A program made the position numbers and the translations under genes. The notes under the pieces were generated by a model. It did not search any database and was not told the DNA's origin. It saw only the letters and a list, made by a program, of their open reading frames with translations. A stretch of 64,000 nt of DNA from NCBI GenBank assembly GCA_000621425.1, contig KK211275.1:62001-126000 (forward strand), read 5' to 3'. The DNA is from Lachnospiraceae bacterium AB2028 (GTDB taxonomy: Bacteria > Bacillota > Clostridia > Lachnospirales > Lachnospiraceae). Position 1 is the first letter of the stretch. The number at the start of each line of letters is the position of its first letter. Below, piece by piece: positions 50,052 through 64,000 of this stretch.

Positions 50052-51707
50052 ATGCAAAGAAGCGAGAAATATTTTGCTTGTTTGGAGGCTGCATTTTTGA
50101 ACAAGTTAGTGGGTACTATGTTGTATAGTGTTGATTTTAAGAGAAAAATTGTTTTCTCTTTGTTTTTATCTTTATTTTTGTCAGTGTTTTCCGTTTTAGG
50201 GTTCCAGCTCGAAGATAAACATATTCTTACATTTTGTTTTTCTGCTATTATTATATTTTGCAGTTATTATGTATTATATTTAATTCTTGTCTATTTTTTG
50301 TTCTGTATATTTGATCGTTATTCGGCTAAAGAGAAAGCTATAGGAATTAAAGAGTGGTATTTGATTTTGATTTCTTTTGTGATTTTTTTTGGGGGGTATT
50401 TTATCATCCTTTTGGGAGTTTTTCCGGGGATTTTTGCATTTGATTCACAAACACAATTTTTAATGTATGAGAATAAGATGATTTCTGCGCATCATCCCGT
50501 ATTACATACTTTGATTATGGGATATATCATTGATGGTTATTCAATTAGGAATAACTATAATTTGGGAGCATTCTTCTATTCTTTGTTTCAAATAGTGGTG
50601 ATGTCTTTGGGGTTTTCGGTGGTTTCTTTTTATGTATATAAAAAAACTAAGAATTATATAATATGGATTATTTCCGTCATTTTTTATGTTTTTTTTCCAC
50701 CAATACAGCTTCAAGTATTATCCGCAACTAAAGACAGTATCTTTTTAGCGTTCATGCTGGTTACTATGGTTCTATCATTAGTAATGATAGAGTATAGTAA
50801 ATTGTTCTATTCAAAAAAATATTTGCCTTTTTTTTGGATTATATCATTTGTTTTAATGACGATATTTAGAAATAATTGTATTTATGCAATTATTTTTCTT
50901 CTTGTAGGTTTAATATTGGCAGAAAAAGAGCATAAAAAAGAGAAGTTGATTATTTTTACGGTATCAGTCCTTGTAATACTATCGTATAATTCCATTTTTG
51001 TTCCTTTGGTTACATATAAAGGTGTTGATGATAGAGAAAAACTATCTGTCCCGGTTCAACAGCTGAATAGAATATATAATTCTTCAAATGCTAATATTAG
51101 TGAAGATGAAAGGATAATAATTGAAAATGTTCTTGGAGAGGGTATAAATCATTACTGTCCTAAAATCTCGGATTATTCTAAGAAGTATATGAATATTGAT
51201 TATTGTAATGAAAATAAAAAAGATGTTGTTAAAACTTATTTTAGCGTTATTATGAAGAATCCTAAAATTGCAGTGGAATCTTTTCTTGATAATACATATG
51301 GTTTTTGGTATCCGTATGCAACACTTGCTTTATATCCGGACGGACAGGAAGGTTATTGGCCTGTCAAATGCTGGGAACCATGGCATTTCGATTCGAAAAT
51401 CCCTCTCGTGCTTGAATATTATAAGATATTTGAAGATTCGGATTATCTTATGCATAACCCTATTTATAAGACTTTTTTTAATCCAGGGTCCTATTTTTAC
51501 TTGTTCCTGATTATGTTTGGTTATTCATTGTATAAAAAAAATAGAGCTTATAATGTTATTTATTTTTTTACGTTTATGCTGTTTGCCACATACTTATTGG
51601 GGCCTGTTGCTTTAGTCAGGTATGCTATTTATTTTTACGCTTTTGTACCACTATATTTCACGATGATAGAAAACAATCAGTTTAGAATGAAAGAGGTAAA
51701 CACATGA
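50052..51707 (+). CDS. polytopic membrane protein, possibly DUF6020-like
   Basis: This is a 551-residue, very AT-rich protein with about ten to twelve helices. The segment [36 protein letters not shown] recalls the DUF6020 pattern of a PG-x-x-x-x-DS motif followed by HHP, seen in membrane proteins linked to surface polysaccharides; I offer this from memory with moderate certainty. An alternative start is ATG 50118, which removes 22 hydrophilic residues. The stop codon overlaps the lepA start (ATGA), so this foreign-looking gene is translationally coupled to a universal housekeeping gene. Confidence 0.7.
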
Positions 51708-53518
51708 CAGATCAGTCACATATAAGAAATTTTTGCATAATAGCACATATTGATCACGGCAAGTCCACACTGGCTGACCGTATCATAGAGAAGACCGGGC
51801 TCCTTACAGAGCGCGAGATGCAGGATCAGGTCCTTGACAATATGGACCTGGAGCGTGAGCGTGGTATAACCATCAAGGCTCAGGCTGTGCGTACTGTTTA
51901 TAAGGCTAAAAACGGTGAGGAATACATTCTGAACCTTATAGATACCCCGGGACATGTGGATTTTAACTACGAAGTGAGCCGTGCTCTGGCAGCCTGTGAC
52001 GGTGCTGTGCTTGTGGTGGATGCGGCCCAGGGAATAGAAGCCCAGACGCTTGCAAATGTCTATATGGCACTTGAACATGACCTGGAGGTCTTTCCTGTGA
52101 TCAACAAGATCGACCTACCCAGTGCGGAACCTGAACGAGTGAAGCAGGAAATAGAGGATGTAATAGGTTTGGAAGCTATGGATGCTCCTGAGATATCAGC
52201 TAAGTCAGGTCTTAATGTAGAGGATGTACTGGAAGCTATCGTAGAAAAGATTCCAGCACCCCAGGGCGAGGCTTCGAAACCGCTGCAGGCGCTTATATTT
52301 GATTCAGTATATGATTCCTACAAGGGAGTCATAGTATTTATGCGCGTTTTTGAGGGCAGTATAAGAAAAGGCAGTAAAGTAAAGATGATGGCTACCGGAG
52401 CAACGGCAGAAGTAGTGGAAGTGGGAACTTTCGGTGCAGGTCGCTTTATCCCTTGCGATGAGCTTTCTGCAGGAATGGTTGGATATCTTACAGCCTCAAT
52501 AAAGAATGTCAGGGATACTGCAGTGGGTGATACCGTGACGGAAGCGGATAATCCCTGTGAAAAACCCCTGCCCGGATATAAGAAGGCGCAGTCAATGGTT
52601 TATTGCGGTCTGTATCCTGCGGATGGCGCCAAGTATCAGGAACTTAAGGATGCTTTGGAAAAGCTGCAGCTTAATGATGCTGCGCTTAACTATGAGCCGG
52701 AGACTTCCGTTGCTTTGGGCTTTGGTTTCAGATGCGGATTCTTAGGTCTGCTTCATCTTGATGTTATTCAGGAGAGACTTGAGCGTGAGTATGACCTGGA
52801 TTTAGTTACTACTGCACCCGGTGTTATATATAAGGTTTATAAGACAAACGGCGAAATGATAGAGCTGACCAATCCTTCCAATCTGCCTGATCCGTCAGAA
52901 ATCGACCACATGGAGGAACCTATCGTAAAAGCTGAGATAATCGTTACCAAGGATTTTATCGGTTCCATAATGGAGCTTTGTCAGGAACGGCGTGGCGTAT
53001 ATCAGTCAATTGAATATATCGAGGCTGACCGAGCTGTACTTAAGTATGACCTGCCCTTAAATGAGATCATTTATGATTTCTTTGATGCTTTGAAGAGCCG
53101 TTCGAGAGGGTATGCATCCTTCGATTACGAGCTGAAAGGGTATGAGAATTCCAAGCTTGTGAAACTGGATATCCTGATAAACAGGGAGGAAGTCGATGCA
53201 CTGTCCTTCATAGTCCATGCGGATTCTGCGTATGAACGGGGCAGGCGTATGTGCGAGAGACTTAAGGATGAGATACCCAGGCATCTTTTTGAGATTCCTA
53301 TACAGGCGGCGGTAGGCGGAAAAATAATAGCCAGAGAGACCGTGAAGGCCATGCGTAAGGATGTATTGGCCAAGTGCTACGGCGGTGATATTACCCGAAA
53401 GAAAAAACTCCTTGAAAAGCAGAAGGAAGGCAAGAAGCGCATGAGGCAGATTGGCAATGTGGAGATTCCACAGAGTGCATTTATGAGTGTGTTGAAGCTG
53501 GATGAGGATAAGAAGTAA
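51704..53518 (+). CDS. lepA: elongation factor 4 (LepA)
   Basis: LepA is a ribosome-bound translational GTPase thought to help initiation and 30S biogenesis. The 604-residue protein has G1 AHIDHGKST near residue 14, G3 [17 protein letters not shown]4 [13 protein letters not shown] and the LepA-specific C-terminal domain ([25 protein letters not shown]). AGAGGT at 51690-51695 is its ribosome site, lying within the last codons of the gene upstream. No hemN or hrcA, which often follow lepA, is present; large membrane proteins follow instead. Confidence 0.97.
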
Positions 53519-53572
53519 TAATGCTGAAAGCTGAGATTAATGATGATTTTTGCATTGATAGGTAAAAGATTA

Positions 53573-55837
53573 ATGGAAGAAAAAAAGAATATGATAAATG
53601 AATGTCTGAAAAAGTATATGCGGCCTGCAATTGTGATAGTTGTTATTGCACTGGCTCTTGAAATTTTTGTGTTTAATTTTCGTTCCGTTCAATCGTTGTT
53701 CTATAGGGAAACAGTTGTTCCGGTAGATGGATACAGAATGACAGGAATGAAATACTTCGGGGACGGAGTGTATAAAATGGTATCAGATGATGTGGTAGGT
53801 ATAGCTTTGTTGGCTGATGGACAGACACAGAGTGAACTAGAATATGGAACCGGTGTGGGTATAGATGGTGAGGGAAATGCTGTATCAGCTTTGTACCTGA
53901 CAGATCTTGATGGAGTGATTGAAGATGGCGTAATACATAGCATAAAATTGGATGTAGAAACCCCGGCTGCCATTGATTTGCCCTTTAAAGAATCGGGTGT
54001 ACTTTTTGTAAAAACCCATATAAAGGATGCTGGAAATGCGTATCTTGAGACTTTGGATAAACATCCGGTGCTGCAGAATATCGAAGGGTCTAAATACATA
54101 TATATGCAGCCGGCGGGGAAAGTGAGTGACATTGTTTTGGAATTTTCTGCATCAAATGGTGGTGTATTAATAATAAAGGGGATTACCTTAAATGCTCACA
54201 GACCACTCATGTTTTCTTTTTATAGGTTCCTGTTATTGCTGGTGGTTGGTGTGGCTGCCTATTCGTTGCGTCCGGCATCAGTTTTGTGGCGTAAGGATAG
54301 TTTAGAGAAGGCTGCCTGGAAGAAGTATGTTGTTATGGGGCTTTGCATACTGTATATTCTGCCGGCTTGGATTCTTATCCGTGATAATGTGTATCTGACA
54401 AATTATGTGGAGTTTAACCCATATCAGGATCTTGCAGAGGCGCTCGCGGAGGGGCATTGCTACATAGATGAAGAACCGGATCAGGCTCTGGTATCGTTGT
54501 CAAATCCCTATGATGATTCACTAAGAACGGCAAATGGCATAGAAACAAAATGGGATTATGCTTATTTTGACGGAAAGTACTATGTTTATTTTGGAATAGT
54601 TCCCTGCATTATTTTTTACTTGCCACTTTACATCCTTGTGGGAACAAGAATGCCTAATTCATTGCCTGTTCTTGGAGCGGCAGTTCTTTTGTTTTGGGGA
54701 ATTTATATGCTAATAAGGGCAATGGCGGCGGCGTATTATCCTAAACTAAAATATGCCGCACATCTGATTCTTACAATGGTTATATATATGGGTTGCCAGA
54801 TGCCATTCTTTCTGAATCAGCCTGATGGCTATGCGGTACCTGTGGCCTGTGCCGAAGCCATGCTGGTATGGGGACTTTATTTTTGGATATCATCACTTAA
54901 GGCAGAAGGGTGGCGAATGTATGGCAGGGTGGCACTGGGATCTTTTCTTATTGCACTTATTGCCGGAACCAGACCGAATATGGAGATTTATGCACTGATG
55001 AGCGTGCCTGTGTTTATGTGGTTTGTCAAAGTTAATTTAAAGCTGGGGAGAGGGGGAAATCCAATTGTTGCTTCTGAACCGACAACGAATAATATAAAGT
55101 CAAATATTACAGGATTTGCAGCTGCGTTTGTTTTGCCGTTTATACCGGTTGCTGCCGGCCTCATGTATTATAATGCTGTACGTTTTGGATCGGTATTTGA
55201 TTTTGGTAATAATTACAATCTTACGGTTTCGGATATGTCGCTGAATCCCTTTTCATTGGATAAGTTATTTATAGGTATATATGAGTATCTGTTGAAACTC
55301 CCTGAACTTAAATATAGGTTTCCTTTTATGTCTATACCTGGGGACGGGACAGAAACAAATGCATTTGGCCATTGTTTTGTACATATGGAATATATTTTTG
55401 CCGGACTTCTTCCTGTTAATGTATTGCTTTGGTCGATACCGGTTCTGCTAAAAAAGAAAGGTGAAAAGGAGGGGAGAGACTGGAAGCTTATGTCTCTTAG
55501 GTATTTGGGGCTACTGGCGGTGGTTCTTGCATTTTTCCTTGTGTTTTTTGACAGCGAGAGCGCGGGTATAGTATATAGGTATGAGGCGGATTTTTCGCTT
55601 GCTTTGTTTATAGGCGCGACGGCGGCTGTGATGCTTGTTATGGCTAAATTTGATAGGCTTAGTGATGAAGCTCGTTGGATTGGTGAAAGGGCAATGAGTG
55701 CATTCCTTATAACATCGCTTATTTGGTCACTTGTTTTCCATTTCAATTTCTATTTCCTCACAGGGCTAAAGTATCCTTTGCTCTGGGGGAATACGGAGCT
55801 GTATTATAGGATATTCTATGCCTTTAATTTTATGTGA
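53573..55837 (+). CDS. large membrane protein, YDGKYYVYFG family, paralogue 1 (GT-C-like)
   Basis: The 754-residue protein has a first helix (VIVVIALALEIFVFNF), a beta-rich extracytoplasmic domain of about 170 residues, and then some ten helices. Landmarks shared with two downstream genes are EIFVFN-x-R-xx-QS at the end of helix 1, NPYQDLAEALAEGHCYI, DYAYFDGKYYVYFGIVPCIIFYLP, MPNSLP, and YNAVRFGSVFDFGNNYN. The order of loops fits a GT-C-type membrane glycosyltransferase, but I cannot name the family or substrate. The start is uncertain: ATG 53573 has GGT nearby, 53591 would align best with the paralogues, and 53540 is the longest frame. Confidence 0.72.
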   Translation: MEEKKNMINECLKKYMRPAIVIVVIALALEIFVFNFRSVQSLFYRETVVPVDGYRMTGMKYFGDGVYKMVSDDVVGIALLADGQTQSELEYGTGVGIDGEGNAVSALYLTDLDGVIEDGVIHSIKLDVETPAAIDLPFKESGVLFVKTHIKDAGNAYLETLDKHPVLQNIEGSKYIYMQPAGKVSDIVLEFSASNGGVLIIKGITLNAHRPLMFSFYRFLLLLVVGVAAYSLRPASVLWRKDSLEKAAWKKYVVMGLCILYILPAWILIRDNVYLTNYVEFNPYQDLAEALAEGHCYIDEEPDQALVSLSNPYDDSLRTANGIETKWDYAYFDGKYYVYFGIVPCIIFYLPLYILVGTRMPNSLPVLGAAVLLFWGIYMLIRAMAAAYYPKLKYAAHLILTMVIYMGCQMPFFLNQPDGYAVPVACAEAMLVWGLYFWISSLKAEGWRMYGRVALGSFLIALIAGTRPNMEIYALMSVPVFMWFVKVNLKLGRGGNPIVASEPTTNNIKSNITGFAAAFVLPFIPVAAGLMYYNAVRFGSVFDFGNNYNLTVSDMSLNPFSLDKLFIGIYEYLLKLPELKYRFPFMSIPGDGTETNAFGHCFVHMEYIFAGLLPVNVLLWSIPVLLKKKGEKEGRDWKLMSLRYLGLLAVVLAFFLVFFDSESAGIVYRYEADFSLALFIGATAAVMLVMAKFDRLSDEARWIGERAMSAFLITSLIWSLVFHFNFYFLTGLKYPLLWGNTELYYRIFYAFNFM

Positions 55838-55887
55838 TTCAAAGGCAAATAACACATAAAGTGTAGGAAACGATAAATGGGGGAGAT

Positions 55888-57597
55888 ATGTCTTTTTTTT
55901 ACCAAAGGAATTTAAAAACATTTGTGGAAAAACAAAAAGTATTATTGCCTATTTTTATATCTGTTGTGGTGTTTTCATTGTTTTTAGCTTTTGGACCATA
56001 TGTTATGCCGGAAACTTATGATGACAGAATGTTTATGTTGCTTGCTGCTGGGGCATTTGGTGATACTACTTTTAATCTTATTCCCCCGAATATAATATAT
56101 GGAGGTTTTCTCCGCTTTTTCTATATCATAATTCCACAAGTGAACTGGTATCTTTTTTTTCAGTATGCATTCAATCTGTGTGCCATTTCGATGCTGTCTA
56201 TAGTTTTGACTAACAAATATAGGGATTTATTATGGCGGATAATTACACCGATTATTGTTGGGGTTTGTTTCGGAGAGAGTTTTTACCTGAACATACAATA
56301 CACTACAAATAGTTTTTTGTATTTTATTACTGGAGGAATAGTGTGCCTTTCTGTATGCCTTGCGGAAGACGAAACTAAACACAGAATAGCCTATTGTATA
56401 GGGAGTTTTTTTATTACTTTGTCTTTTATGCAACGATGGCATTGTTCCATTTTTTTGTGCCCGTTTTATTTTATTGTTTTATGTGTGTGTGCAATCAAAA
56501 ATAAAGTGGACATTTTCAAATTCAAAGGGGTAAAGTGGTTTCTCAGGCTGATTTTACCGTTGATTTTGGGTTTGCTTTTGTCTTTAATAAATATTTTTTC
56601 TGTTAAATATAATGCAGAATGGGCAGAGTATGAAAAATTTTTTGAAAAAGGCTCAAGACTTGTGGATTATATGCCGGCAGTATATCAGCTCCATCCAAAT
56701 GAGTATTTAGATGCAGGAATAACTGAAATGGATATAGTACTATTTAATAATCTTATTTCTATGGACACTGAAACTTTTACTACTGATCATTTAGCAGAAA
56801 TGGTAAGAATAAAATCACAGGATGAAGACTATCGACTCAAATTGAATGGTGATATTATTACGGAGATAGTAGGGTGTTTACATGATATGATAAAGCAAAT
56901 GCCCATACTTTTTTCATTATTATTTCTGTGCACTATATTTATTCTTTTTAAGGGAAATAAAATGGAACGCTTAGTGTTTGGAGTTTTATTTATTCTGTTT
57001 ATTTCTGAAATTTGGTTTATTGTATGTAGGGGGCGGGCTCCTATGCGAATCCTTTTGGGACCGGCATTGGCGCTAACTGTTTTCACTGTTTGGTTGATAA
57101 TGGATAAGCTTAGTGAATTGCCTATTTTTGAAGTTTCATGTGTGAAATATGGCAGTCTATTATTTGCGTGTACCTTAATGTGGGGTACCTTGAACAAAGA
57201 GAATGCTAATTGGTGGCAGGGGGAGGAAATCTATGTCATAGATGCACTTAGCAAGGATAAAAATCATAAATATGTTATGGATACATGGATTCTTTGCAAT
57301 GATGGCTTAGGAATAAGGAACCCAATGACAATCACTGCTACAAACTATAGTGGATATTTTAATAATATTGTATTAGCGGGGGGATTTATTCCTCGAATGC
57401 CCAATGTGACTGATGCGGGATTAAATAATCCTGTTCGTAGTTTGGTTAACAAGGATGTTTTTTGGGTGACTAAATCACAGTACGGGGATCAGTTGACTGG
57501 AGTAATTGATATTTATCTGGAAGAAAAACTTCAAAGAGAGATAGGCGAATATATGGTTATTGATACCGGCGATATTCAGATTTGGAAATTCTACTAA
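55888..57597 (+). CDS. polytopic membrane protein of unknown family
   Basis: This is an AT-rich 569-residue protein with roughly ten to twelve helices. After helix 1 the loop reads MPETYDDRMFMLLAAGAFGDT, an acidic loop-1 motif reminiscent of GT-C or Gtr-type glycosyltransferases acting on surface polymers. Its last 160 residues contain an extracytoplasmic domain. I do not recognise the family. The 3' end overlaps the convergent yfhO-like gene by 41 bp. GGGGGAG lies very close to ATG 55888. Confidence 0.65.
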   Translation: MSFFYQRNLKTFVEKQKVLLPIFISVVVFSLFLAFGPYVMPETYDDRMFMLLAAGAFGDTTFNLIPPNIIYGGFLRFFYIIIPQVNWYLFFQYAFNLCAISMLSIVLTNKYRDLLWRIITPIIVGVCFGESFYLNIQYTTNSFLYFITGGIVCLSVCLAEDETKHRIAYCIGSFFITLSFMQRWHCSIFLCPFYFIVLCVCAIKNKVDIFKFKGVKWFLRLILPLILGLLLSLINIFSVKYNAEWAEYEKFFEKGSRLVDYMPAVYQLHPNEYLDAGITEMDIVLFNNLISMDTETFTTDHLAEMVRIKSQDEDYRLKLNGDIITEIVGCLHDMIKQMPILFSLLFLCTIFILFKGNKMERLVFGVLFILFISEIWFIVCRGRAPMRILLGPALALTVFTVWLIMDKLSELPIFEVSCVKYGSLLFACTLMWGTLNKENANWWQGEEIYVIDALSKDKNHKYVMDTWILCNDGLGIRNPMTITATNYSGYFNNIVLAGGFIPRMPNVTDAGLNNPVRSLVNKDVFWVTKSQYGDQLTGVIDIYLEEKLQREIGEYMVIDTGDIQIWKFY

Positions 57598-60187
57598 TAC
57601 CGATTGAGAGCAGAAACAGTATGATTCCGGCAATGCCGATTGCTCGGCCTAGATAAACCCATTTGCTTTTGTATACAAAATGAATGTTGTGCGTCCCTTT
57701 TTCTAAAACGACACCGAGAAAAGCATCATCGAGTATTGGATATGTTTTTAATTCTGTGTTATCACAGTATACATGCCAACTTTTATCGTAGGGGATGGTG
57801 GTGAAAAGAAGTGGTTTATCTGACGTTGCTGTGACAGTGGCTTCGATTTGATCATCCAGGAAGGATGTTACCGTCATTGCGCCGGGGACAAGGTCTGAAT
57901 ATACTGCGGCTATTTCATCCGCATCTTCATATGCAAAATAAATAGATTCATAATCAAAAGCCGGAGTTTCTGCAGCGTTCATTTCAATATAGAGTCTGCA
58001 TAGTCCGTCATCGTCGGGAGACATCTCAATTATATGTGGAAGTGATATGTCAGACAATCTATCCATTCCGCCAATATCCGTATTTGAATGGATAATTGGG
58101 GAATTATTAACAAGTTCCGAAATACCCCACCTGTACATATAGGCGTATGTTTTGCCATCTTGATTGGCAGGAATTGAATATGTGATTTGACCATAATCAT
58201 CGGTAAGGCGTACTTTAGTTCCGGCATCATAAGTGATTAAATCAATGTTTTGGGGCTCCACATAGCATACCCCATCATAAATAGTATAAACACAATGTTT
58301 AGTTCCGCACATAGTGTTAACCAAGCTGTTTTGGGCTTCAAATGGATTTATATCAGGTATGTTGTAGTCGAGCATGTCAGAAGAAACCATATATCCGAGA
58401 GGAAGTGTATAGTCTTTTTTTTTGAATAAATAATATGGTGCACGATCGCTGTAAATATATCCACATTCCATGCTATATTTTTGGGCAAAAAGCATTTGCA
58501 TAAGTGGTGTGGATCCATAGTCATATGCGACTAGGTTTGTTGAGGCATAGCCAAATTTATTAAGTATATGTCGTATCTTTTCGTTTTCTATTGAACAGAA
58601 CCACCCGATGCCGTGAAAATCGTAGAGCATTGATATGTTGTCGGTTAGTGAGTTGAGATAATGGACCCGATAGAACATCCAAGGATCTGTTGCCTCGTGT
58701 TTTTTTATTTCATCAAGGCAATTTTCAGCCTGCATACAGGCAATAGTATAATCGTATCTGCTTGGGGGGGGGTTATAGAGTTTTTTCTGACCCTGTAGCA
58801 GATTGGTACTAAGCTCTGCAACCAGTAGCAAAATAAAAACGGCCTTATTCATGAATTTTCCCGTGCATCGTTTTAAGGTTATTACATATAGCGTAGTTAT
58901 GCAGAATAGTAAAAGAATAGTGGTTGGATTGATGTTTTGTGCTGCTGGATTCAGTTTTGTGGGAATGCAATATAATATGGCATAGATAAGGACATAGATT
59001 AATGCTATTATGGATATTGTTTTCGGCACAATCCCTTTTCTACAGATGGTTTCATATTCTTTGGCAGCGGTTAATATCATACAAAAACAAAAAAAACAGG
59101 AAAATCTGAAAGCGTATCCGTTAGGAGCATCGAAAGCATGCATAAAAAGGTAAAGTGGTTTTAAAAATGAACATAGGACTAGAAAAACCAATGGAATGCC
59201 GGCGAAATATTTCGTTCGTTTGCTTATATTGGTGTCAAAAAAGAAAACGCTTGATAATAGTAAAGCGGGGATGCCGGAGTAGATATACGGGATTGTATTA
59301 TTGATACTCTGGCATTGCGCGGGGTAGAGCCCGGCTAAGAATTCCCAAGGATAGAGAACAAATTTGTTTAATTTGTCAGCATCTGTTGCTCGCATTGAAA
59401 TGAGTTCATAACCGGCAGGAATGAGAAGAGGTGCAGCAATAAGTGTAGCGATAAAAACGCATTTAAAATATTCGGAGAGAGCTTTTTTCCATAAAATGGA
59501 TGTTCGGCCGTAAAGATACCAGGTATATGCAATGAAAATAACAAAAGAAAAGATACCTGTCATATAAGCAGTATAGAAATGGATTATGAAACTATAGGCA
59601 TAAATTATGCATAGCCATCCCCATTTTCCGTATTGAAGAAATCTGTTAATACCTAAGACTATTAGTGGCAGTATGTATAGCATATCTAATAATTCAAAGG
59701 AAATAGAAAAGAACGCGAAGAAGGAGCAGAGACTATATGCAGTGGAAAAGAAAACTGATGCATAGCTTGAAATTTTAAATATGCGTTTTAGTAATAAATA
59801 CATGCATAAAGAGGTAAACATTAGTTTCGCGATAACGACACAGAAACTGGCAATTTCTATGTCGTTGATCACAAGATAGAATATATTGAAAGGGCTTTGT
59901 GAGTAAAACGCATTTATAGCAACAGTGGGCATTCCCATTCCATTCTTAAAACTGTACACCAAGCTTTCATGGGAAAAGAGGCGGTTCATAAATTCTTTTG
60001 AAAAAATGGAAAATTGATGTAGCCCATCCCCAAAGATAAAAAGTTGTCCATATCCGGGCATAATGTCTGAACAAATGGTTGTGACTAAAAAAATCAAGGC
60101 AGGAAGAAACACAGCAATGAGTAAGGCAGGTAATTGCGGGATAAACTTATCAAATTTTTTTTTCTTTGTAGTATATGAATAACTCAT
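57557..60187 (-). CDS. YfhO-family membrane protein
   Basis: This is the only confident minus-strand gene. The 876-residue protein has about twelve N-terminal helices, a large extracytoplasmic domain (about 480-840) and a last helix (about 848-866). The first loop (FGDGLHQFSIFSKEFMNR, then YSFKNGMGM and AFYSQSPFNIFYL) and the C-terminal segment TTIPYDKSWHVY followed by FLGVVLEKGTHNIHFVYKS are hallmarks of YfhO. In Bacillus subtilis YfhO acts with CsbB and GtcA in glycosylating lipoteichoic acid, probably as the sugar-transferring GT-C enzyme. No csbB or gtcA is in the window. It is convergent with the gene before it and divergent from the one after. Confidence 0.88.
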   Translation of the reverse strand: MSYSYTTKKKKFDKFIPQLPALLIAVFLPALIFLVTTICSDIMPGYGQLFIFGDGLHQFSIFSKEFMNRLFSHESLVYSFKNGMGMPTVAINAFYSQSPFNIFYLVINDIEIASFCVVIAKLMFTSLCMYLLLKRIFKISSYASVFFSTAYSLCSFFAFFSISFELLDMLYILPLIVLGINRFLQYGKWGWLCIIYAYSFIIHFYTAYMTGIFSFVIFIAYTWYLYGRTSILWKKALSEYFKCVFIATLIAAPLLIPAGYELISMRATDADKLNKFVLYPWEFLAGLYPAQCQSINNTIPYIYSGIPALLLSSVFFFDTNISKRTKYFAGIPLVFLVLCSFLKPLYLFMHAFDAPNGYAFRFSCFFCFCMILTAAKEYETICRKGIVPKTISIIALIYVLIYAILYCIPTKLNPAAQNINPTTILLLFCITTLYVITLKRCTGKFMNKAVFILLLVAELSTNLLQGQKKLYNPPPSRYDYTIACMQAENCLDEIKKHEATDPWMFYRVHYLNSLTDNISMLYDFHGIGWFCSIENEKIRHILNKFGYASTNLVAYDYGSTPLMQMLFAQKYSMECGYIYSDRAPYYLFKKKDYTLPLGYMVSSDMLDYNIPDINPFEAQNSLVNTMCGTKHCVYTIYDGVCYVEPQNIDLITYDAGTKVRLTDDYGQITYSIPANQDGKTYAYMYRWGISELVNNSPIIHSNTDIGGMDRLSDISLPHIIEMSPDDDGLCRLYIEMNAAETPAFDYESIYFAYEDADEIAAVYSDLVPGAMTVTSFLDDQIEATVTATSDKPLLFTTIPYDKSWHVYCDNTELKTYPILDDAFLGVVLEKGTHNIHFVYKSKWVYLGRAIGIAGIILFLLSIGISRISKSEYRRYQ

Positions 60188-60306
60188 TTCTTTGTGGTCT
60201 ACATAAAAAGTATTATCAATTTGGTTGTAAGTAATATGATATATATTGTATCATAATGTGGTACTTGTAGGATAGTGTTTTATGAAAGTGGGATTGATTC
60301 ATCTGT
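60188..60306. promoter_or_regulatory. Divergent intergenic region between yfhO-like gene and paralogue 2
   Basis: This 119-bp AT-rich gap must hold promoters for both directions. On the + strand TTGTAA (60225-60230) and TATCAT (60249-60254) are 18 bp apart, a modest match. ATGATA (60236-60241) and TATCAT (60249-60254) form a 6-bp inverted repeat with a 7-nt spacer that could be a shared operator. I found no good minus-strand promoter by eye. Confidence 0.4.
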
Positions 60307-62427
60307 ATGAATGAACGGAAAAGTGTAAAAAAGAGTATTCTGGCAATGATAGTTTTGATTTTGTTAGCAATCCTTATCGAAATCTTTGCCTTTAATATTC
60401 GTGCTTTTCAAACTTGCGGTTATGAAGAGAAAAATTTGGATGATTTTTATGATGTGGAACTTGTAGGAGGCGTATTTGATTCTGACGGCGATATCGTTAT
60501 GAATAAAGATGCGGATTATGTTACACTTAACATAACCGGATTTGGATATCCGCTTAACAACATAAGACTGGATGCTGAATGCCTTAGTGAAGTAAAGGAT
60601 TCGGAATGTCAGGAAAAGGTGTGTGTTGTAGAATGTTCAGCCTTTGATGATGCGTTGTTTGAGATGATTGGAACAGATGGTAAATCTTATCTGCAAAATG
60701 GTGCGGTTATGACCGTAAGGGCAGATATAATCCATGATATAGAGAATTCACATTACTTGTTTCTTAATCCATTTGGAAATACCCACAAACTTCAGATTGT
60801 TCTCTACCCAAAATCAGGGGATTTAAGCATCATTAGGATACATGAACTAACTTTTAATGCTGTAAAACCTGTGCGGATTTATCCTGCCAGGACTATGGTC
60901 ATATTCCTGGTACTTCTTATCATTTATTATTCATTAGCCAATCTGGATTTATGGCAGACAGATTGCATAGGCAGGAAAAAGTGGAAAACCGTGCTTATTG
61001 CAGGGACATTTGTTGTATTTGCCGTTTTTACGTCATTTTGGATGATCTCTGACAAGGCTATTTGGACTGAGGGCTTTTCACCCTATAGTGCATTGGCTAA
61101 GGCTATTTCAGATGGAAGATTATATGTCGGGGAGGCAAGTGATACGGTCATATCAACAGAAGGTCGCCCTGTGTTCTGGCGGGGAGACAGTACCGAGGTT
61201 ATGTTTGATTATGCCTACTATGATGGAAAATATTATGTGTATTTTGGGCTTCTTCCTTGCTTGGTGTTCTACTTGCCATACCATCTGATTACAGGCGGTG
61301 ATATGCCCAATGCTTTGCCGGGACTCTTATTAAGACTTATGACGGTTGCCCTCGTAGGCAGGCTCATCTGGAACATTATACGGCGGTACTATAGAAAGAC
61401 TCCGTTGGCTTTATTTCTGCTGATGTGGTGGGGAACTGTATGTGGAATGTATATTCCGGTTCTTATGACTGAAATGATAATGTTCTATGATGTTCCCATT
61501 CTTTCGGGGCTTGTACTGACTTTAGCCGGGGCTTGTTTTTGGACGGGTATGGACAGTTTTGGCGGAAGAAACACTGTTATGAAAGCCACGTTTGGAAGTG
61601 TGTGTATGGCTGCTGTGTCCCTGTGCAGGCCAACTATGCTGCTGTATGGATTTGTCATCCTGGCATTCATTATTTGGTATCGAAGGGATGAGATAAAATG
61701 TCTTGCTCACAAAGAACTGGTTTCATATGGGGGGAGTGTTGTTATACCGTATGTTTTTTTTGCTATTATCTGTATGATTTATAATGCGCTGCGTTTTGGA
61801 TCTCCGCTTGATTTTGGTTCATCCTATAATTCGACAACGTATCCAATAGAAGGGGCGTCACTATTTATCCCTTATGTTGCCGTGAGGGCTGCCTATGAAT
61901 ATCTTCTAAAACCGCCGTACATTAATTTTGGATTTCCTTTTACTAAATTTACGGTATGGGAGAAGGTGCGTGTCGCCGGAAATATTATGGTTGTAGATAT
62001 GTTCGATGGTGGAATACTGTCAGCAAATCCATTTAGTTGGGGGCTGGCGTTAATCGCTCATTACAGAACTAAACTTAGACAGAAAAATCTGCTTTGGCCT
62101 ATGGTATCAAGTATTGCCATTTCTCTTTTTCTTATGGTATATGGTGTGGTATACACAAGTTCAGTATATACGAGGTATACGCTTGAGTTTTCTCCGGTAA
62201 TACTTGTATGTGGATGTATAATGATCATGGAGATTTACGAAGATATAGCAATGCTCGATAGTTGTTTGGTAAAGAAGGTGCTTAGGGTGGTAGTGACTTT
62301 GGCCTTAATGTTTTCCTTAGGTTGGGGCGGCATTCAGCTGTGTTGCGCTGAGACCGGAAGTGCGGGAATGGCTGTGGGAAATCCAGAACTATGGTATACA
62401 CTTAAATACGGATTTAGGATATTTTGA
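60307..62427 (+). CDS. large membrane protein, YDGKYYVYFG family, paralogue 2 (GT-C-like)
   Basis: This 706-residue protein has the same plan as the gene at 53573: helix 1 ending EIFAFNIRAFQTCGYEE, an extracytoplasmic beta-rich domain of about 160 residues, then about ten helices. Shared motifs are SPYSALAKAISDGRLYVG, FDYAYYDGKYYVYFGLLPCLVFYLP, MPNALPG, and YNALRFGSPLDFGSSYN. Its base composition is nearer to the chromosomal average than that of the AT-rich single genes. It ends 7 bases before the third paralogue, so the two form an operon. GT-C fold and surface glycosylation are inferences. Confidence 0.75.
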   Translation: MNERKSVKKSILAMIVLILLAILIEIFAFNIRAFQTCGYEEKNLDDFYDVELVGGVFDSDGDIVMNKDADYVTLNITGFGYPLNNIRLDAECLSEVKDSECQEKVCVVECSAFDDALFEMIGTDGKSYLQNGAVMTVRADIIHDIENSHYLFLNPFGNTHKLQIVLYPKSGDLSIIRIHELTFNAVKPVRIYPARTMVIFLVLLIIYYSLANLDLWQTDCIGRKKWKTVLIAGTFVVFAVFTSFWMISDKAIWTEGFSPYSALAKAISDGRLYVGEASDTVISTEGRPVFWRGDSTEVMFDYAYYDGKYYVYFGLLPCLVFYLPYHLITGGDMPNALPGLLLRLMTVALVGRLIWNIIRRYYRKTPLALFLLMWWGTVCGMYIPVLMTEMIMFYDVPILSGLVLTLAGACFWTGMDSFGGRNTVMKATFGSVCMAAVSLCRPTMLLYGFVILAFIIWYRRDEIKCLAHKELVSYGGSVVIPYVFFAIICMIYNALRFGSPLDFGSSYNSTTYPIEGASLFIPYVAVRAAYEYLLKPPYINFGFPFTKFTVWEKVRVAGNIMVVDMFDGGILSANPFSWGLALIAHYRTKLRQKNLLWPMVSSIAISLFLMVYGVVYTSSVYTRYTLEFSPVILVCGCIMIMEIYEDIAMLDSCLVKKVLRVVVTLALMFSLGWGGIQLCCAETGSAGMAVGNPELWYTLKYGFRIF

Positions 62428-62434
62428 TACTTAA

Positions 62435-64000
62435 ATGGTAAAAAACAGGATAATAAAAAAAATCATAATAATACTGTTGGTTTCGTTTTGCGTGGAAATC
62501 TTTGTATTCAACATACGCTTTTTTCAGTCAGCACTTTATGACCGGGTACTACTTAGTGAGTCAAATACGATAGCAATAGAAAATGCGCATCTTCTTAGCG
62601 ACGGTTGTATAGAGCTTGACGATGGATACAGTGATTTTACGGTTACCATTGGAAACTTAGATAAAAGAATACAGAATATCCATCTGGATATAGAGATTGT
62701 TGACGAAGACAATACGACGGAAAGCATCAATAATGTATGCAATGTGTCTGTGATGGTTTGGGATGACGCACTTCATGAGAAAAAAGGAGAAGACGGCAAT
62801 ACATATCTTGACAGTGGACTATATGATCTGACATCGAAGGAAATTATTTCGCTTGTGCCTGAATCAGAATACATCTGGATTGAAACCTTTGGAAATGTAA
62901 AGGAAATAAAGCTTACTATTTCTGCAGCATCCGGAGTTGGAAGGGTGTTCAGGATCAATGAGTTATCTTTTAATGCGACACAGGAACTACATGTCTCATT
63001 TGTTAGACTTGCTGTGATTTATATTTTTTTGCTAATCTGCGATGTGATCCTGCTTGAGAAGGGTGTCTGGAAAGCTGATTGTGTAACTCCGGCAAAGTGG
63101 AAACTGATAGTTCCGATGGTGCTTTATCTATTGGTTGCTGTAGCTGCGTTTATGTGGACAATGGCCAATCCGGCGGTTTTTGGCCCCGACCAGAATGAGT
63201 ATGCGCCTCTGGCAAGGGCTTTGCTCAGGGGTGAAACATTTGTCGGAACTGCAGGGGAGTTTGTGAAGGCGGCAGAGGGCAAGATTGTCTTTTGGAGCAC
63301 ATATTCCCCGGAAGTAAAGTTTGATTATGCGTATTATGATGGAAGATTTTATGTATATTTTGGGGTGTTGCCATGTATAGTGTTTTTTCTGCCGTATCTT
63401 ATTGCAACCGGGCGTGATTTGCCTAATTTCATCCCAGTAGTTATGCTTTGCTTGGCGTTGCTGGCAGAAGTATATATTTTTCTTGGAATGCTTATACGCA
63501 GATATTACAGAAATACCCCATTTGTGGCAAGGTTGCTGATGACGGCGGCGGCCGGTGGCGGTACATATCTGGTCTCTCTGATCAGTGTGCCTAATCATTA
63601 TACGGTAGCCATTGCGTTTGGGGTGTTCCTTTCATTGGCTGGCGTGATGTTCTGGATGAGGGCTTTCACCGAAACTATGCTGAGTGGAGGGATGAATGAA
63701 AAAAAATATACGGTAAGGACAGGTTATCTGGCTGGAGGTAGCGTATGTATGGCAGCGGTATCGTTATGCAGACCGACACTCCTGATACTGGGAGTATCCA
63801 TATTGTTAGTTATAATGGCAAGGGATAGAAAAGTAATAGCAGGAATGGATAGGAAAAATATGCGTAGTTGTGTATTGGCAGTGACCATACCATATACTGC
63901 CTTGGCGTTGATGTGCTTGTATTATAATTATGCACGGTTTGGTTCACCTTTTGATTTCGGAGCATCGAAGAACATGACAACTATTCCATTTAATGGTGGA
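62435..64000 (+). CDS. large membrane protein, YDGKYYVYFG family, paralogue 3 (3'-truncated by window edge)
   Basis: An uninterrupted frame of 522 codons runs from ATG 62435 to the last base; the 3' end lies outside the window. The product begins with helix 1 ending EIFVFNIRFFQSALYDR, then an extracytoplasmic domain (about 30-175). Motifs shared with the other two copies follow: NEYAPLARALLRGETFVG, FDYAYYDGRFYVYFGVLPCIVFFLP, LPNFIP, and YNYARFGSPFDFGASKN near the edge. It starts 7 bases after paralogue 2 and has no clear ribosome site, so it is probably coupled. It is the third tandem-type copy. Confidence 0.78.
   Translation, partial: MVKNRIIKKIIIILLVSFCVEIFVFNIRFFQSALYDRVLLSESNTIAIENAHLLSDGCIELDDGYSDFTVTIGNLDKRIQNIHLDIEIVDEDNTTESINNVCNVSVMVWDDALHEKKGEDGNTYLDSGLYDLTSKEIISLVPESEYIWIETFGNVKEIKLTISAASGVGRVFRINELSFNATQELHVSFVRLAVIYIFLLICDVILLEKGVWKADCVTPAKWKLIVPMVLYLLVAVAAFMWTMANPAVFGPDQNEYAPLARALLRGETFVGTAGEFVKAAEGKIVFWSTYSPEVKFDYAYYDGRFYVYFGVLPCIVFFLPYLIATGRDLPNFIPVVMLCLALLAEVYIFLGMLIRRYYRNTPFVARLLMTAAAGGGTYLVSLISVPNHYTVAIAFGVFLSLAGVMFWMRAFTETMLSGGMNEKKYTVRTGYLAGGSVCMAAVSLCRPTLLILGVSILLVIMARDRKVIAGMDRKNMRSCVLAVTIPYTALALMCLYYNYARFGSPFDFGASKNMTTIPFNGG

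Follow-up and report, generated by a model that had tools for sequence, protein, structure and literature searches.

An array of seven paralogous membrane proteins, probably GT-C surface glycosyltransferases, beside lepA in Lachnospiraceae bacterium AB2028

The array at the lepA site

The DNA analyzed here (the window: 64,000 nucleotides of Lachnospiraceae bacterium AB2028, bases 62001-126000 of contig 1 of a 3.48 Mb genome) opens, in its final 10 kb, an array of seven paralogous genes, P1 to P7, which encode large membrane proteins and four of which begin past base 64000. The original prediction had recognized a family of three. Those three, P1-P3, are real, with open reading frames (ORFs) as it described, but the family at this site has seven members: past base 64000, where it suggested looking, P3 comes to its end and P4-P7 follow (Table 1). 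A profile built from all seven matches these seven alone in the genome of the bacterium, P4 being matched in two pieces. P1, for which a longer start at 53540 is possible, begins 55 bases past the last base of lepA, and lepA is the chromosomal site of the family in the genus of the window. The gaps between P2 and P3 and between P3 and P4 are 7 and 10 bases, respectively, and P4 overlaps P5 by 4 bases; because of this tight spacing, P2 to P5 probably form one operon.

Table 1. Positions of the array genes and neighboring features. Unprefixed positions are those of the window; L009 and L010 are separately numbered loci.
Feature	Position	Strand	Remarks
551-aa membrane protein	50052..51707	+	upstream neighbor; DUF6020 (64.7 bits)
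lepA	51704..53518	+	elongation factor 4; named by reading, landmark
P1	53573..55837	+	754 aa; canonical-type member; NPYD, W, D, E, D positions kept
P1 invariant Asp328 codon	54554-54556	+
569-aa membrane protein	55888..57597	+	no Pfam or NCBIfam family
YfhO family protein	57557..60187	-	PF09586, 426.9 bits; putative GT-C glycosyltransferase
P2	60307..62427	+	706 aa; remodelled-clade member; structure modelled
P2 residues 36-190	60412..60876	+	CBM-like beta-sandwich between TM1 and TM2; from structural matches
P2 residues 219-705	60961..62421	+	predicted GT-C core; VIA-align rows 1-43
P2 Asp301 codon	61207..61209	+	end of the first extracytoplasmic loop of the core
P3	62435..64000, on to L009:12570 (window-equivalent 64570)	+	711 aa; remodelled-clade member
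P4	L009:12581-14419		612 aa
P5	L009:14416-16518
P6	L010:2131-4173
P7	L010:4236-6287
Island GT2	L010:7622		PgfS/ArnC-like; PgfS 215.5 bits, cut-off 500

The motifs on which the original prediction relied are all present in P1, P2, and P3: EIFVFNFR, EIFAFNIR, and EIFVFNIR; DYAYFDGK, DYAYYDGK, and DYAYYDGR, each running into YVYFG; and MPNSLP, MPNALP, and LPNFIP. The YN-xx-RFGS-xx-DFG-type motif reads YNAVRFGSVFDFG in P1, YNALRFGSPLDFG in P2, and YNYARFGSPFDFG in P3. With full-length identities of 24% (P1-P2) and 35% (P2-P3), the resemblance is not due to chance, and the genes are paralogues as proposed.

Predicted fold, invariant residues, and remodelled copies

The structure of P2 was modelled with 75 homologues, giving a predicted local distance difference test score (pLDDT) of 91.8 and a predicted template modelling score (pTM) of 0.91; an earlier model of P1, based on seven sequences, was of poor quality (pLDDT 57.9) and was set aside. 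The core of the type C glycosyltransferase (GT-C) fold, whose absence from structure predictions would by the original prediction have weakened its idea, is present in the P2 model. The 43 best matches of the VIA-align comparison (rows 1-43) are all GT-C proteins, with Z scores from 20.0 to 10.3 and 269-384 residues aligned within model residues 202-706; among them are Pmt2 (20.0), ALG12 (18.8), STT3 (18.5), ArnT (17.3), AftB (17.2), and Emb (14.7). The first five Foldseek matches are AglB, EmbB, EmbA-EmbB, EmbC, and ArnT, the best having an E value of 3.9e-05. In VIA-align rows 44-50, residues 30-190 are paired with carbohydrate-binding and related beta-sandwiches (Z 8.0-8.4, 2.7-3.4 Å over 110-121 residues), and Foldseek matches for this domain include the carbohydrate-binding modules (CBMs) CBM6, CBM29, and CBM86. 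The term CBM-like describes shape here and not function, because a Z score near 8 may reflect a common arrangement alone.

The solved mycobacterial Emb arabinosyltransferases have a transmembrane (TM) helix followed by a CBM-like beta-sandwich and by TM helices that include the GT-C core, an order shared by the P2 model. The C-terminal CBM of Emb is, however, absent from the model, in which residues 622-706 are mostly helical to the end, and the identity in the structural alignments is just 7-12%. With the GT-CA enzymes (PMT, ArnT, STT3/PglB/AglB, AftB, and PimE) the family shares the core fold over P2 residues 202-706 and an acid in the first extracytoplasmic loop of the core, while sequence similarity to them is not detectable.

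Relatives were collected from the GTDB set by one degenerate pattern, [YF]xGxYY[VT]Y[FH]G, which returned 487 stretches, 468 of them encoding relatives; the best 80 of the 468, ranked against P1, are loci L041-L120. As a result of the pattern and the ranking, the motif positions and P1-like residues appear more conserved than they are. Alignment A3 has 75 rows selected from the fetched loci, with P4, partial genes, and near-duplicates left out. Aligning the acidic residues of loop 1, a step advised in the original prediction, shows an invariant acid, Asp301 (P2 numbering here and below), which is found in all 75 members at a position outside the collecting pattern. The RP pair, the YN and RF of the YNxxRFGS motif, and Y624 are likewise invariant (75/75), position 627 is Asp or Glu in every row, and D114 of the beta-sandwich is present in 74.

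In GT-CA enzymes the first juxtamembrane helix carries the catalytic Asp at its apex, a few residues before the juxtamembrane Tyr in PimE-type enzymes (PMC12041525), whereas the invariant acid of the family lies at the far end of the loop, with about 15 residues between it and the next helix. Because Asp301 is invariant while the acids before Y260 are not conserved, the alignment makes it the best candidate for a catalytic or metal-binding acid.

The original prediction that the extracytoplasmic domains differ strongly agrees with their identities of 19% (P1-P2) and 30% (P2-P3), but the cores differ almost equally (25% and 37%), and the two parts diverge in step (r = 0.84 over 378 pairs from 28 sequences). 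We also considered shuffling of the extracytoplasmic domain, the exchange implied by the proposed modular machinery, and rejected it on the basis of this correlation and of the trees of beta-sandwich and core, which give the same main groups; the nearest neighbor is identical by both parts in only 17 of the 28 sequences.

P2-P7 belong to a clade whose conserved positions have been remodelled. N286, Y288, and D289 are kept in 62, 63, and 62 of the 63 members outside the clade and are absent from all 12 within it, a count that excludes P4, and all 12 carry Phe at position 300, Pro in place of D513, and Glu in place of D627. P1 keeps the canonical residues at the remodelled positions. These differences between P1 and P2, P3, and P5-P7 are consistent with different specificities. 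In the tree, P5 is placed next to P3, P6 groups with P7, and P4 stands next to the P2 clade.

P4 lacks, by alignment, P2 residues 254-312 and 321-341, Asp301 among them, and has lost further conserved residues (Y492F, F497I, T510N, and R623G). The region concerned is otherwise well kept, the other members being 44-55% identical to P2 over residues 248-345 as against 24-35% over the full length. No N is present in the region that would suggest an assembly error, and within L009 and L010 the missing loop is encoded only in the six other paralogues, apart from one chance match (E 0.4). P4 is a probable pseudoenzyme. A precedent is subunit U of the glycosylphosphatidylinositol (GPI) transamidase, which has the GT-C fold but is not known to act as a transferase.

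Distribution and genomic surroundings

The family profile matches 21 of 24 genomes of the window's genus (its own included), none of 16 genomes from other families of the order, and 2 of 299 genomes of a phylum sample, again counting its own, where no more than three candidates were scored in each genome. By their titles, loci L041-L120 come from Lachnospiraceae, Oscillospiraceae, other Clostridia, and some Coriobacteriia. Hundreds of gut and rumen Clostridia, along with some Coriobacteriia, encode the family, usually in a single copy. Of the 15 loci L041-L055, 11 have at least two copies and 12 include lepA; among the 65 loci L056-L120, neither a second copy nor lepA occurs. Loci L041-L055 appear to belong mostly to the window's genus, L043 and L048 being unmatched, and L066, from the other group, matches a genome of the genus. 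Variation of the set, which the original prediction proposed to test between strains, is found between species, with one to five copies in other loci and seven here. Multiplication next to lepA and among YfhO genes is seen only in this genus of rumen Lachnospiraceae. Literature searches on Lachnospiraceae GT-C proteins that carry binding modules, on the classification and the pseudoenzymes of the GT-C class, on component 27, and on GT-C paralogues of clostridia gave no description of the array, at the level of listings and of passages from PMC11127046, PMC7801869, and PMC12041525.

Neighbors were scanned with naive ORF calls in 63 of the 65 loci L056-L120, leaving out L057, where the family gene was uncalled, and L066. 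The 118 immediate neighbors include 13 matches to PF00535, 13 to TIGR04182 (AglJ), and 9 to PMT_2. DUF3048 proteins (8) and zinc carboxypeptidases (5) are recurring company as well. A model built from 12 neighboring glycosyltransferases of family 2 (GT2s) finds an AglJ-like polyprenyl-phosphate GT2 in 16 of the 80 loci; in 12 of these no more than 40 bases separate it from the family gene, and in the other 4 the distance is up to about 2 kb. The GT2 of the island itself was rejected as the general partner, since it occurs in only 3 of the 80 loci and the usual partner is the different, AglJ-like enzyme.

The association with YfhO noticed in the original prediction extends through the genus: a YfhO gene lies within 10 kb of the family gene at 24 of 57 places (16 of 20 genomes), compared with about 2.2 expected from gene density. 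For this count, places in the own genome and short second fragments of counted genes were dropped, YfhO fragments were merged, and one match below the cut-off was omitted; contig ends depress it. In this genus the family stands side by side with YfhO/PgfM1/PgfM2 proteins (PF09586), and the reaction is probably of the same kind as in CsbB-GtcA-YfhO systems, which combine a GT2-type (GT-A) enzyme, a flippase, and a GT-C protein (PMC8035078). The YfhO systems differ in belonging to another sequence family, and a flippase gene is not found in the island. Kinship with YfhO by sequence was rejected: P1-P3 have no PF09586 match at E <= 1, PF09586 is not among the matches of sets of 30 and 44 members, and hhalign gives a probability of 6.3%.

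Between and after the array members, the island holds three YfhO genes, other membrane proteins, an acyltransferase, a GNAT protein, a DUF6311 protein, a GT2 resembling PgfS and ArnC, an SDR protein, a split transketolase, an AMP ligase, a thioesterase, and a LuxE protein. The position of the 569-aa membrane protein suggests that it may be part of the glycan set. The one YfhO gene scanned of the three, at 57557..60187, scores 164.9 bits against PgfM2 (cut-off 1500) and 139.4 against PgfM1 (cut-off 1400); neither this gene nor the GT2 reaches the equivalog cut-offs of PgfS, PgfM1, and PgfM2. The own genome has about eight YfhO genes overall, three of them in tandem on contig 4 (303648-311748), away from the island. 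The split transketolase pair adjoins the SDR protein (L010:9888-11698), perhaps for an unusual sugar, and two genes read as FdtA/WxcM sugar isomerase-like (L010:1615-2091 and L124:1242-1901), the second fused to an acetyltransferase-like part. The island closes with the thioesterase, LuxE, and, by reading, a LuxC-like reductase (L010:18075-19875 and L124:3-1085), the AMP ligase being at L010:12101; such a fatty-aldehyde-like or acyl-sugar route is unusual for a glycan island.

A lone 179-aa protein, prepilin-like by reading, is encoded between P5 and the second YfhO gene (L009:16609-17148), far from a type IV pilus-like operon (PilM-like, T2SSE ATPase) that follows the island (L124:2170-17241). 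That operon encodes a 2323-aa prepilin-headed protein, whose end has masked bases and a low-complexity stretch. In genome NK4A179 (G002), the interval between lepA and the P1 relative holds a gene for a 413-aa protein that reads as CDP-glycerol glycerophosphotransferase-like (L126:10989-12230). A scan of the own genome for PF04464, made with wall teichoic acid as acceptor in mind, gave one partial match, far from the island.

Two described groups are worth comparing. Component 27 of Durairaj et al. 2023, presented in PMC10584680 as a new transmembrane glycosyltransferase family with a median of 665 aa and distinct from YfhO, is, like the present family, an uncharacterized bacterial GT-C-like group. 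Its members are annotated as YfhO in InterPro, whereas P1-P3 have no Pfam YfhO match; the two may be one and the same. The putative glycosyltransferase family NF047440 (LA_3751/LA_3752) is matched by 3 of 44 divergent members (best E 2.5e-07) and, at E <= 1, by none of P1, P2, and P3.

Proposed function and alternatives

We propose, with a probability of roughly three in four, that the family consists of extracytoplasmic GT-C surface glycosyltransferases that depend on polyprenyl-phosphate sugars and that have diverged in specificity in the array, P4 being a probable pseudoenzyme. A cytoplasmic GT2 would charge undecaprenyl phosphate with a sugar, a flippase would turn the lipid-linked sugar outward, and the GT-C protein would transfer the sugar to a surface glycan outside the membrane. 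The N-terminal CBM-like domain would probably hold the acceptor, and Asp301 would probably serve catalysis. In the window's genus the gene would have multiplied next to lepA, with P1 as the conserved canonical enzyme. Because their active-site set is altered, the descendants P2, P3, P5, P6, and P7 probably have another donor or acceptor specificity, and P4 would be a retained copy without the catalytic loop, possibly a non-catalytic partner.

Several observations weigh against this proposal. A common fold is no proof of activity, and the acid usual just before the conserved Tyr of the first juxtamembrane helix is not conserved: in the sequence alignment, the four columns ahead of the invariant Y260 together hold acids in no more than 21 of 75 rows. 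P1-P3 match no Pfam or NCBIfam family (best chance matches at E 0.014 and 0.022), the sets of 30 and 44 members match no consistent Pfam family, and a link to a characterized enzyme is absent at the level of sequence, the hhalign probability against YfhO being low. The PMT_2 (GT39-like) model PF13231 is likewise unmatched by P1-P3 and by both sets, and hhalign against PMT_2, with a shallow set of 7 neighbors as the template, gives 0.7%. A search of the PDB by sequence profile returned nothing but a chance match (E = 2). The three GtrA flippase genes of the genome lie outside the island. The AglJ-like GT2 adjoins the family in none of the 15 loci L041-L055, and the own-genome copy, 65% identical, is on contig 5, away from the array, within what reads like a glycan locus.

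As to the acceptor, it is conceivable, though on the unlikely side, that it is protein and not a wall polymer, the targets of the array and of the YfhO genes being surface proteins or type IV pilins. The pgf operon of S. mutans modifies surface proteins in this manner, and modification of Cnm and WapA is reported in PMC5856776. The prepilin gene inside the island and the pilus operon after it speak for such a role, as does the likeness of the GT2 to PgfS and of YfhO to PgfM2, both below the family cut-offs. The lone prepilin was, however, noted in the window's genome alone, and among the top neighbor families the single-copy loci adjoin glycan genes and not pilins. In NK4A179, moreover, the P1 relative follows the CDP-glycerol-polymerase-like gene, a LicD-like gene is nearby, and no pilus gene was noticed in 20 kb, all by reading.

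It is less likely that the seven genes are redundant duplicates of one specificity, maintained by dosage and subject to drift, with P4 a decaying pseudogene held open by translational coupling from P3 to P5. The tight spacing of P2-P5 would suit such coupling, and the end branch of P4 (1.28, compared with 0.22 for P2) is the longest in the clade; P4 has also lost the additional residues named above. Drift alone would not readily fix the clade changes in 12 of 12 members from several species, however, and P2 and P3 have orthologues in three genomes (G009, G003, and G002). The frame of P4 is, furthermore, open across all 612 codons, whereas in 200 runs of a random-mutation null the mean number of stops was 7, 12, and 17 at 20%, 35%, and 50% amino-acid change, with minima of 0, 4, and 7, respectively; as a sign of retention this is suggestive only.

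That the proteins have the GT-C fold without performing transfer, and bind or carry lipid-linked glycans like GPI transamidase subunit U, whose structures are among the VIA-align matches (rows 35, 36, 41, and 42), would fit the finding that the acid usual just ahead of the juxtamembrane Tyr is not conserved, but is improbable in view of the invariance of Asp301, the RP pair, YN, RF, and Y624 and of the repeated adjacency to polyprenyl-phosphate sugar synthases.

An extension of the surface-glycosyltransferase proposal would make the family a separate GT-C branch whose catalytic acid has shifted out of the first juxtamembrane helix and into the DxAxxxGxYYVYFG motif, at the opposite end of the loop. 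In one rumen genus this branch would have become, at the lepA site, a species-variable array of differently tuned enzymes working with the loop-less P4 as a non-catalytic subunit. We consider this extension speculative and rather unlikely.

Although hundreds of gut and rumen genomes carry the family, it falls under no consistent Pfam family. A polyprenyl-phosphate sugar synthase is repeatedly encoded beside it, a pairing that offers a ready two-gene test system for the chemistry of the donor, and the array, with one canonical, five remodelled, and one loop-less copy, is a natural series for asking how GT-C specificity changes and which acid catalyzes.

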